Below, piece after piece: positions 1-39,035 of a stretch of DNA of 41,203 nt (its first letter is position 1; each line of letters begins with the position of its first letter). Origin of the DNA: Acidobacteriota bacterium (GTDB taxonomy: Bacteria; Acidobacteriota; Blastocatellia; Chloracidobacteriales; Chloracidobacteriaceae). The position numbers and the translations under genes are program-made. The stretch lies in contig JACQXX010000097.1 in NCBI GenBank assembly GCA_016208495.1, forward strand, positions 1-41,203, given 5' to 3'. Below the pieces are notes generated by a model. It was not told where the DNA came from. It did not search any database and saw nothing but the letters and a program-made list of their open reading frames with translations.

Positions 1-29
1 AGTAGTCAGTAGTCAGTAGTCAGTAGTCG
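1..29. repeat. Heptamer tandem array (agtagtc)x4
   Basis: Four perfect head-to-tail copies of agtagtc begin at the first base, so the array probably extends beyond the window. The same unit recurs in the opposite orientation at 135-180, and in single arrays at 8084-8109 and 35487-35510. With the array at 135-180 it forms inverted arms around a unique spacer of about 100 bp. Confidence 0.9.
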
Positions 30-134
30 AGTGTTGGGATTTGAGGACTTGTGTCAAGTGGATTTGGTTCTATTTGAGTCAGTTATGAACAATTCTTTTC
101 AAGAATTCGACGGATTCAACGATCCGGGGTTTAT

Positions 135-186
135 CTACTGACTCATCAACTACTGACTTATCAACTACTGACTACTGACTGGTATC
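135..186. repeat. Degenerate inverted heptamer array (ctactga) ending in ggtatca
   Basis: Interrupted copies of ctactga, the reverse complement of the array at 1-29, end in ACTGGTATCA. That terminal sequence also borders the arrays at 8072 (as TGATACCAGT) and at 35515. The array sits about 20 bases upstream of the EutN-like gene and so lies in its promoter or leader region. Confidence 0.8.
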
Positions 187-8071: not shown

Positions 8072-8109
8072 TGATACCAGTTTGTAGTCAGTAGTCAGTA
8101 GTCAGTAGT
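8072..8109. repeat. Heptamer array (gtagtca) with TGATACCAGTTT border
   Basis: About three and a half perfect copies of gtagtca follow the border TGATACCAGTTT. The 24 bases 8071-8094 are exactly the reverse complement of 35501-35524, so the same repeat unit plus border occurs twice in opposite orientation 27 kb apart. Confidence 0.85.
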
Positions 8110-8193
8110 TTACTAACTTTACTTCTTTGAGTTACTTCACTGTTCGCGAATCCAGGCAATTCATTCCGCTGAAAGTCTTTCAACTCTCCGCTC

Positions 8194-12807: not shown

Positions 12808-12835
12808 GTGGTTCGTGGTTCGTGGTTCGTGGTTA
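12808..12835. repeat. Heptamer array (gtggttc)x3 plus gtggtta
   Basis: Three perfect gtggttc copies are followed by one gtggtta, starting 17 bases after the stop codon of the upstream gene. The last unit equals the unit of the arrays at 23873 and 37876, suggesting related repeat families. Confidence 0.85.
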
Positions 12836-23289: not shown

Positions 23290-23874
23290 ATGCCCTTCTC
23301 TGCCCGGTTCGAAGAAGCCCTGGTGTATGCGGCCCAGCTCCACAAAAATCAGCTCCGCAAAGGTTCACATACACCCTATGTTGCCCACTTACTGGCGGTT
23401 GCAGCCCTGGTCATCGAATATGGCGGTGATGAAAACCAGGCTATTGCCGCCTTATTGCACGACGCCATCGAAGACCAGGGAGGCGACGCCATCCGGCAGG
23501 AAATCCGCCGGCGCTTTGGCGATGACGTTACGGAACTGGTGGATGGCTGTACCGATGCCGAGACGATCCCGAAACCACCCTGGCGCGCCCGAAAAGAAGC
23601 CTATATCGAACATCTGCAAACAGCTTCGGCCCGCGTCCGACTGGTCTCAGCCGCTGACAAACTGCACAACGCCCGTGCAATCCTGACCGATTATCGGGTC
23701 AATGGTGAAGGGGTATGGGGCTACTTCCGAGGCGGGAAAGAAGGGACGCTGTGGTACTACCGGACGCTCCTCACAGTCTTTCAAGCCGGTGAACCCAATC
23801 GCCTGATTGATGAACTGGAACATACGGTGCGCGAACTTGAGGCACTGGTCGGTCAGAATGAGAAGACCATTTAG
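23290..23874 (+). CDS. Stand-alone SpoT-type HD-domain hydrolase (small alarmone hydrolase-like)
   Basis: A 194-residue HD-superfamily phosphohydrolase. The metal-binding set is complete: RKGSHTPYVAH with His33, HDAIED with His57-Asp58 and Glu61-Asp62, and AADKLHNAR with Asp123. This pattern matches the (p)ppGpp-hydrolase domain of SpoT/RelA enzymes. The synthetase, TGS and ACT domains are all missing, so it resembles small alarmone hydrolases (MESH1 type). It may degrade (p)ppGpp or a related nucleotide. It follows the thioesterase gene closely. The TAG stop codon is part of the gtggtta repeat array that begins there. The family is confident; the alarmone substrate is inferred. Confidence 0.87.
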   Translation: MPFSARFEEALVYAAQLHKNQLRKGSHTPYVAHLLAVAALVIEYGGDENQAIAALLHDAIEDQGGDAIRQEIRRRFGDDVTELVDGCTDAETIPKPPWRARKEAYIEHLQTASARVRLVSAADKLHNARAILTDYRVNGEGVWGYFRGGKEGTLWYYRTLLTVFQAGEPNRLIDELEHTVRELEALVGQNEKTI

Positions 23875-23896
23875 TGGTTAGTGGTTAGTGGTTAGT
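23873..23896. repeat. Heptamer array (gtggtta)x3, left part
   Basis: Three units of gtggtta, whose first copy overlaps the stop codon of the HD-domain gene. The array is interrupted at 23897 by a palindromic insertion and resumes with AGT at 24182. Confidence 0.9.
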
Positions 23897-24181
23897 GATG
23901 CCAGTTAAGAGTTGAAGCCGTTTTGGTTCTCAGCCCACGAAGTGGGCGCCGGCTCGTAGCCCAGGGCGAGTCTTCGAGCCCTGGGAACCTGGTCACTCCC
24001 CACCCGTTCCCCGCCCGGCCAGCCGCCGCCGTAGGCGACGGCTGGCCGGGCGGGGAAATTTGGATTGGAGATGACCCGCATCCGGTGGTGGCGCGTCCAA
24101 AGCGACGCTGACCACCGGCTCACCTTACTCCATCCCAACGGGGATGAAAACCAAAAAACACTTCAACCCTTAACTGGCATC
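23897..24181. mobile_element. 285-bp multi-hairpin MITE-like element with 21-bp terminal inverted repeats
   Basis: The ends GATGCCAGTTAAG... (23897-23917) and ...CTTAACTGGCATC (24161-24181) match at 20 of 21 positions as inverted repeats. The surrounding gtggtta array continues in phase if AGT (23894-23896 and 24182-24184) is taken as a 3-bp target duplication. The interior contains at least five hairpins: gcccac/gtgggc, cccagggc/gccctggg, a 17-bp GC-rich stem (ccccgcccggccagccg), ccggtggt/accaccgg and catccc/gggatg. No reading frame for a transposase is present, so movement would need an enzyme supplied elsewhere. Confidence 0.8.
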
Positions 24182-24266
24182 AGTGGTTAGTGACTGGGTT
24201 TAGGCTCTTCTTCAAAGTATTGATTTCTAACCACTAACCACTAACCACTTTCTTCATTCTTCATTC
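24182..24266. repeat. Heptamer arrays: gtggtta remnant, inverted ccactaa, cttcatt
   Basis: The resumed gtggtta units are followed by a short unique core containing caaagtattgattt, then three inverted units (ctaacca, 24223-24249) and cttcatt units (24251-24265), reaching the stop codon of the YajQ gene. The same order of modules occurs at 37876-38046. Confidence 0.85.
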
Positions 24267-37873: not shown

Positions 37874-37875
37874 TA

Positions 37876-38046
37876 GTGGTTAGTGGTTAGTGGTTAGTGG
37901 TTAGTGGTTAGTGGTTAGTGGTTAGTATCTAATGTTTTAGTCCTTAGTGCTTAGGAATCAATACTTTCAAAGTTAGAACCAAGAACCAACCACTAACCAC
38001 TAACCACTAACCACTTTCTTCATTCTTCATTCTTCATTCTTCATTC
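37876..38046. repeat. Composite repeat: (gtggtta)x7, core, inverted ccactaa, then cttcatt
   Basis: Seven perfect gtggtta units (37876-37924) are followed by a unique core with aatcaatactttc, about four inverted ccactaa units (37986-38013) and about four cttcatt units (38016-38046). The last repeat ends 2 bases before the ATG of the next gene, which consequently has no Shine-Dalgarno sequence. Confidence 0.93.
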
Positions 38047-38048
38047 TC

Positions 38049-39035
38049 ATGGCTTCACTCACTGACATTCCCGGCATTCGCGTCGGACACTGGACTGATT
38101 CACGACGGCCAACTGGCTGCACGGTGGTTTTGTTTGATTCACCGGCCACGGCAGCGGTTGATGTTCGTGGAGGCGCACCGGGTACACGGGAAACGGACTT
38201 GCTGTCTCCGGTCAATCTCGTTTCACAGGTTCACGCCATTGTGTTGACGGGTGGGAGCGCGTTTGGATTGGAGGCAGCCACAGGTGTTGTGCGCTATCTC
38301 GAAGAACGCCAGATTGGGTTTGATGTTGGCGTGGCCAGGGTGCCAATTGTACCGGCGGCAGTTCTGTTTGATCTGGTGCTTGGCGATGCCAGCATCCGAC
38401 CAGATGCGGAAAGCGGATACCAGGCATGCCTTGCGGCTTCGGATGGCCCGGTCAGTGAAGGTTCAGTCGGGGCTGGCGCGGGTGCCACGGTTGGGAAAAT
38501 GCTCGGGTTTCATCGGGCGATGAAAGGTGGCATTGGCACGGCGGCAATTCACACCGCAGATGGGCTCTGTGTCGCAGCCCTCATCGCGGCCAACCCCTGG
38601 GGAGATGTTCGCGACCCTCGCACCGGTCACATTCTGGCCGGAGCACGGAGCGAAGACGGAAAAACCCTGGCGGATCCAATCCGGCTGATGCGTGAAGGCA
38701 CTCTGCTTGACCCGTTCAACCCGGCCTCAAGTTCAAACACAACCATCGGTTTGGTGGCGACCAACGCCGCTTTAACCAAAACCGAACTGACCAAAGTGGC
38801 GCAAATGGCCCATGATGGTCTGGCACGCACGATTTTTCCTGTTCACACCCCATTTGACGGAGACACCCTTTTTGCCGTCGCGATGCCGGCATATATAAAA
38901 GGACAGCCGTTTGTAACTCATCCGGGGAGAGTCGGCATTTTAGCGGCAGAGGCTGTGGCCGATGCGGTGATTCGCGCCGTGCAAACTGCCGTGGGACTGC
39001 CGGGAATTCCGAGCACGGCAGAAATCCAGGGATAA
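38049..39035 (+). CDS. P1 family (DmpA/S58) N-terminal-nucleophile aminopeptidase
   Basis: A 328-residue member of the DmpA/L-aminopeptidase-D-esterase family. These proteins cleave themselves to expose a nucleophilic Ser or Thr and then remove N-terminal residues, sometimes D- or beta-amino acids. Landmarks include the family start LTDIPGIRVGHWTD, GGAPGTRETDLL, VLTGGSAFGLEAATGV, GSVGAGAGATVGK and the autocleavage region SSSNTTIGLVATNA. Thr231 or Thr232 is the probable nucleophile. No signal peptide is present. The ATG immediately follows a cttcatt repeat array and lacks a ribosome site. It is downstream of, but probably separate from, the aldehyde dehydrogenase gene. Confidence 0.92.
   Translation: MASLTDIPGIRVGHWTDSRRPTGCTVVLFDSPATAAVDVRGGAPGTRETDLLSPVNLVSQVHAIVLTGGSAFGLEAATGVVRYLEERQIGFDVGVARVPIVPAAVLFDLVLGDASIRPDAESGYQACLAASDGPVSEGSVGAGAGATVGKMLGFHRAMKGGIGTAAIHTADGLCVAALIAANPWGDVRDPRTGHILAGARSEDGKTLADPIRLMREGTLLDPFNPASSSNTTIGLVATNAALTKTELTKVAQMAHDGLARTIFPVHTPFDGDTLFAVAMPAYIKGQPFVTHPGRVGILAAEAVADAVIRAVQTAVGLPGIPSTAEIQG

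Follow-up and report, generated by a model that had tools for sequence, protein, structure and literature searches.

A probable MITE of paired hairpin half-modules in the heptamer arrays of an Acidobacteriota genome

The element and its setting

The window, by which we mean the whole 41,203-nucleotide stretch of DNA that was analysed, contains at positions 23897–24181 a 285-bp element lying between an HD-domain gene and a DUF520 gene, which we take to be of the YajQ type; the 3′ ends of the two genes face one another. No listed open reading frame of at least 80 amino acids overlaps the element, in line with the original prediction, made from the letters alone, that it carries no gene. Its terminal inverted repeats are each 21 bp long, the left one at 23897–23917 (forward strand) and the right one at 24161–24181 (reverse strand). 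The left end, GATGCCAGTTAAGAGTTGAAG, is identical at 20 of 21 positions to the reverse complement of the right end GATGCCAGTTAAGGGTTGAAG, and the element ends exactly at 23897 and 24181, which bears out the near-perfect 21-bp inverted repeats that had been claimed.

Between these ends the element is built as half A, central palindrome B and half C. Half-module A has two hairpins at 23918–23985 (forward strand). Palindrome B is G+C-rich, has approximate limits of 24007–24057 and forms the junction of the half-modules. Half-module C, read from the right end, has two hairpins (CCGGTGGTCAGCGTC... and CATCCCCGTTGGGATG) at 24066–24160 (reverse strand). The fold of the window copy shows five internal hairpins, the number given in the original prediction, enclosed by a foldback of the ends. 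Its energy is −168.9 kcal/mol compared to −105.8 (sd 5.3) for shuffled sequences (z −11.9), and none of 200 shuffles folded as well.

The element interrupts a GTGGTTA heptamer array, its target, whose left part occupies 23871–23896 and whose right part occupies 24182–24192 (both forward strand). The last three bases of the left part (23894–23896) and the first three of the right part (24182–24184) are AGT, and when the element is excised with one AGT the GTGGTTA register is unbroken, so that the phase-restoring duplication could be read directly. The rest of the natural cassette, a loop and a convergent (TAACCAC)n arm, was read at 24193–24250; no strand is assigned to this remainder, to palindrome B or to the element as a whole. 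The window copy was inserted in the first arm of the cassette, and the loop and the second arm were kept. The element described in the original prediction is real, and these features confirm it.

Copies in the genome

The ends recur throughout the genome. With up to three mismatches, the end pattern matches 144 times in 8,375,582 bases (81 forward, 63 reverse) compared to 0 matches for a reversed control pattern, so the number of matches is not due to chance. A search for further copies with the same ends, as had been proposed, thus found many at other loci, and the case of an element lacking any second copy does not apply. BLAST with the window copy gave 107 matches (40 scored candidates of 398), the long ones at 77% to 100% identity.

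Pairing ends no more than 600 bp apart, we read 65 two-ended copies of 78–437 bp (59 at first, then six more); drawn from 100 of the 144 ends, they are part of the family. All 65 sequences are distinct, with no identical pair. The most alike whole copies share 96–97% identity, which speaks for past mobility but shows no very recent jump. Unpaired ends at 22 loci, judged by eye, mostly look like diverged or truncated copies, and the one at L090 looks like a lone chance match.

With up to two mismatches, the end pattern has 119 matches in the window's own genome and is absent from the other 161 genomes of the class (one positive of 162, its own). The exact pattern matched no stretch of a wider contig collection, in which the records of its own genome were possibly left out, and a whole-element search of 38 relatives returned merely hairpin pieces, in one relative.

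Two arrangements within the family may be recorded here. At L113:1877–2311 several family copies or pieces lie in series, with AAT flanks. The longer copies at L069:2001–2427, L106:2001–2353 and L122 (near 2170) hold a nested insert with palindromic ends (CCATAAGCGCCAGGATAAG...CTTATCCTGGCGCTTATGG), which in L069 seems to lie between direct repeats some 10 bases long.

Duplications and empty sites

By their flanks the 65 copies fall into three classes: those with an exact 3-bp direct repeat (32 copies), those with inverted flanks (22) and those with neither (11). The exact duplications are AGT/ACT in 26 copies, AGA/TCT in three, AAT in two and TAT in one. IS5/ISL2-type DDE transposons make 3-bp ANT duplications; the duplications of 28 of the 32 direct copies (AGT/ACT/AAT) fit this pattern, and those of the AGA/TCT copies and the TAT copy do not. 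The AGT duplication first reported stands for the window copy and has its counterpart in the 26 AGT/ACT copies, but a simple duplication is inapplicable to the 22 inverted and 11 other copies, and with inverted flanks in about a third of the copies read it does not describe every copy.

We searched the joined flanks of each copy against the sequence that had been read; the sites obtained are related rather than orthologous. A related empty site spanning the junction was found for 23 of the 32 direct-repeat copies, ungapped in 16. Matches were also found for 11 of the 22 inverted-flank copies, every one of them gapped, and for seven of the 11 copies of neither class. The window copy's own match is gapped (84%, 4 gaps). 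The flanks consist in part of repeats, so the best evidence comes from matches that reach past the array, such as those of L080 (AGA), L081 and L093. Because related empty sites span the joined flanks of 23 direct-repeat copies, the arrays of those copies predate the insertion, as the original prediction had held for the window, and the heptamer cassettes are older than the insertions that have a visible empty site. Its further claim, that the element is or was mobile, is supported by the copies at many loci, the duplications and the empty sites.

The heptamer cassettes

An exact array (at least two units, within 25 bases) adjoins 35 of the 65 copies; in the background, exact arrays make up 0.31% of 381 kb from the same loci, at 126 per Mb. 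Two intergenic cassette families, GTGGTTA and GTAGTCA, are the favoured targets, and both often take the form of an array, a loop and an inverted array. The loop of the GTGGTTA cassette is often GAAATCAATACTTTCGAAG...; with exact double units and loops of 20–50 bp we counted 44 overlapping forward matches at 32 places, 20 of which were fetched for reading. The loops of GTAGTCA cassettes in the sampled loci measure 56–145 bp in four of five cases and are longer in the fifth. Among the array pairs in the sampled loci with no element between their arms, 17 are convergent and none is divergent within 450 bp; several of the convergent pairs have an element inside or adjoining one arm. One divergent pair has its arms 592 bp apart.

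For a time we considered that natural convergent pairs are all but absent among GTAGTCA arrays. The count behind this idea (loops of 5–65 bp, exact double units) gave two overlapping matches at one place, and the argument was withdrawn because a convergent GTAGTCA cassette with a longer loop lies at window 1–180 and relaxed counting gave five in the sampled loci, the one in the window included.

Convergent cassettes of the two families are dispersed between genes and have a partly conserved loop; examples lie in the window (1–180 and 37874–38057) and at L142–L161. Another dispersed unit, some 110 bp in length with the sequence ATACCATTTTGGAATG...(TGACTAC)nAAACTGGTAT, was noticed at L061, L087, L088, L096, L107 and L124 and at window 8073–8130. 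Its imperfect inverted ends are similar to the MITE ends (ATRCCAGTT).

Pairing and exchange of half-modules

The cores of the copies consist of half-modules A, A2 and C around the central palindrome, or of the separate cores D and E. Among the 41 A/A2/C copies, A is paired with A2 in 22, A with C in 11 and A2 with C in eight, and no half is paired with its like. Shuffling the same halves gave 14.0 like pairs on average, and zero was reached in none of 20,000 shuffles, a figure that is not a probability because the copies are related. The other 24 copies comprise ten E1-E2 pairs, seven D1-D2 pairs, one D1-D1 pair (L079, with a weak score of 0.49 on each side) and six in which at least one half is unassigned. 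In a cruder census by pattern one copy was A2-A2, a result that the alignment-based census did not recover.

As far as the sequences tell, the partner type is independent of a half's own sequence. Under a stricter cut that left 27 A, 22 A2 and 15 C halves, the nearest neighbour had the same type of partner for 13 A halves (13.9 in shuffles), 15 A2 halves (13.8) and nine C halves (7.9). The inner parts of halves, about 69 bases long, can be 100% identical between copies that have different partners: the A half of the window, whose partner is C, equals in this part the A halves of L069 and L059, whose partner is A2, and the A2 half of L082 (partner C) equals that of L074 (partner A). The closest C halves with differing partners are 98.9% identical. 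Six alignments show a similarity that spans the first half, runs into or across the central palindrome and then drops. Trees of single halves, which are poorly resolved owing to the few alignment columns, have seven, five and five changes of partner type for ten, five and five minority copies.

Identical inner halves with different partners point to a swapping of halves between copies at the palindrome, and it is very likely that this exchange has happened repeatedly. Its like-with-like products would be long near-perfect palindromes, and long palindromes are unstable in bacteria. The lack of like pairs among the three main types is probably due to selection or palindrome instability, presumably because bacteria drop such palindromes, and loss of like-pair palindromes during assembly may account for a part of it. 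A narrow literature search for MITEs of mosaic, chimeric or hybrid build came back empty, and this speaks only weakly for their absence. If half exchange is the right reading, the genome offers a natural experiment on the way in which intolerance of palindromes shapes small transposons.

Inverted flanks and the missing loop

In the 22 inverted-flank copies the arrays on both sides converge on the element and the usual cassette loop is missing. A possible reading, which we offer tentatively, is that each represents a cassette that lost its loop during or after the joining of both arms to the element at its exact ends; this may have happened in a single reaction, or by insertion and then deletion of adjacent sequence.

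Homologous recombination between copies, giving chromosomal inversions, could also have generated inverted flanks with no part for a transposition reaction, and the halves have clearly recombined between copies. However, if distant copies had exchanged parts, the reciprocal form and mixed array families should be seen as well. The reciprocal product, with AGT facing outward on both sides, occurs in none of the 65 copies, and GTGGTTA is paired with GTAGTCA in none of the 22 inverted ones (two of which are unlabelled on one or both sides), so that exchange is disfavoured and we regard this origin as quite improbable. It is somewhat less improbable, while still unlikely, that the inverted-flank copies entered loop-less palindromic arrays that were already present, without making a duplication. 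Both arms join the element at the same phase, and 18 of the 65 copies, 16 of them of the inverted class, have an outward-facing ACT on each side, as such a target would have it. Against it stands the near-absence of the target itself: exact patterns with loops of 0–30 bp, counted over the whole genome, found three tight convergent GTGGTTA arrays without an element (loops of 25–28 bp) and no GTAGTCA ones. Perfect palindromes may be lost, and this scarcity is therefore not proof.

We also considered that inverted flanks arise when one arm is copied onto the other. In the GTGGTTA inverted copies, the similarity of arms within a copy gave p 0.001 at 28 bases when L079 and L084 were included and p 0.24 when they were excluded (0.35 for the GTAGTCA copies); the signal depends on these two copies and the idea was rejected. 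Both have long inverted flanks. In L084 both flanks correspond to the same side of a loop, which simple loop loss does not explain.

For the family as a whole, we favour the following mechanism. The 21-bp ends were probably moved in trans by a transposase with a 3-bp staggered cut, mostly at AGT/ACT. The window copy, as its flanks show, entered the first arm of its cassette and duplicated AGT. In the inverted third of the copies, where the left and right ends adjoin different arms and the loop is gone, the transposase might have connected each end to its arm in a single step, acting on an extruded hairpin; alternatively, the element might have inserted first and the neighbouring sequence been deleted afterwards. 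The commonest copies carry as cargo a pair of REP-like hairpin half-modules that meet at the central palindrome, where copies have very likely swapped halves. It is tempting to go further and speculate that transposition reads convergent cassettes as hairpins and replaces their loop without a conventional duplication, while the halves pair under a rule of no like with like, a combined proposal that we think rather doubtful. If loop replacement is true, the transposase would read hairpin targets and leave inverted rather than direct flanks, and the scoring of target duplications for such elements would change.

Cargo hairpins and the nature of the element

The reverse strand of half A (23932–23985) resembles Acido-Lenti-1 (Rfam RF01687). 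The alignment covers the full model at 26.1 bits, and the curated gathering score of 37 is not reached; two unrelated Rfam families, mir-4874 and mraW, have better E-values on palindrome B, likewise under their cut-offs. Across 30 A halves, hairpin 1 stays paired despite two-sided changes in 22 cells compared to 5.6 in shuffles (0 of 500) and 0–4 in slid controls, and hairpin 2 has none. The covariation score of the two hairpins together is 0.207 versus 0.108, and the number of covarying pairs, four, does not exceed that in shuffles, 130 of 500 of which attained it. Templated repair of the palindrome, or a function of the hairpin, may underlie the covariation in hairpin 1. All 30 aligned A halves have GTAG ahead of hairpin 2, a count that is no independent test because these halves were chosen by a pattern containing GTAG.

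A similar hairpin without these ends is found in repeated arrangements in one other genome of the class, and a hairpin fitting the typed pattern is also present in a Verrucomicrobiota MAG. Its presence elsewhere without the ends suggests that the cargo hairpin, which looks like an older REP-like motif, was taken up by the element. In the Verrucomicrobiota MAG (L164, about 2200–2330) a heptamer array, (CACCAAT)n, is found close to the GTAG hairpin. As for gene setting, 40 of 64 copies lie between tandem, 15 between convergent and nine between divergent genes by a crude choice of frames, and no orientation bias is evident among them.

The element is short and without a transposase gene, and it has shared inverted repeats, a 3-bp duplication and related empty sites. 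We therefore think it highly probable that it is a MITE, that is, a non-autonomous DNA transposon inserted in the array. The GTAG ahead of the hairpin in half A, the likeness to Acido-Lenti-1 and the similar hairpins without these ends in the other class genome and the Verrucomicrobiota MAG would also suit a hairpin repeat of the REP/BIME type that a tyrosine (RAYT/IS200-like) transposase has spread, the terminal repeats then being no more than the outermost hairpin arms. Such a repeat is very unlikely given the precise 20/21-bp ends, the 3-bp duplications and the related empty sites, and given the constancy of the ends against a complete turnover of the internal modules. Least probable of all is a reading in which the element is a structured non-coding RNA gene or a terminator and its copies are nothing more than repeats. 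The covariation of hairpin 1 speaks for it, but templated palindrome correction can yield covariation too, the four covarying pairs are matched by shuffles, copies occur in every gene arrangement, and the duplications and empty sites demonstrate mobility.

Search for the transposase

The original prediction had also called for a transposase with matching terminal repeats, and none was found with three Pfam families (PF13586, PF01609 and PF13359) searched genome-wide and ten long frames read beside unpaired ends. PF13586 had 0 matches. PF01609 had two, a gene at a contig end and an element with other ends, which we take to be IS982-like (end of contig C35, L130:1–830) and ISAs1-like (L131, 1900–3110, with ends TAGGGTAAACGCATCTTAA). 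PF13359 had one, a DDE_Tnp_4 fragment at the start of contig C6 (L162:1–200). The matches to PF01609 and PF13359 have other ends or none visible, and no MITE end is seen beside them; an apparent one next to the IS982-like gene has six mismatches and was dropped on reading. The ten frames, from eight of the 22 loci with unpaired ends, matched no transposase family in a Pfam scan (six matched other families and four matched none), and the 65 copies read include no autonomous copy with these ends. The transposase that moved the element may have been lost from the genome.

Comparison with known systems

The MITE itself is ordinary; the exchange of halves without like pairs and the inverted flanks without a loop are uncommon. 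In PMC10969869, bacterial MITEs are described as short, gene-less and present in many copies, with terminal inverted repeats and direct repeats at their ends, all of which is true of the element here. It differs from them in its core of exchangeable half-modules, whose three main types show no like pair, in its strong preference for heptamer cassettes and in the one third of copies that have inverted flanks with the cassette loop gone. A parental IS was likewise not identified for the MITEs of Thiomargarita, according to PMC4853749. IS1397 and other insertion sequences target REP palindromes (PMC1525189), and the element resembles them in inserting at a dispersed intergenic repeat that is able to fold back. 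Unlike in those systems, a heptamer array within a convergent cassette serves as the target here, and the unit that moves carries no gene.

Acido-Lenti-1 RNA is an entry in Table 1 of PMC2864571. The reverse strand of half A shares with it two hairpins linked by CUA, and differs in its score below the curated value and in having its hairpins within a mobile element. Abundant intergenic TAACTGA heptamer repeats occur in Beggiatoaceae (PMC4679880). The genome studied here likewise has many short intergenic heptamer arrays, but with other units, arranged in convergent loop cassettes and invaded by a MITE. The window also holds perfect heptamer arrays of other units, at 12808 (GTGGTTC), 18496 (AATTAAG), 22763 (AACCCGG), 28605 (TCTTCAT) and 41131 (GGTTCAG).
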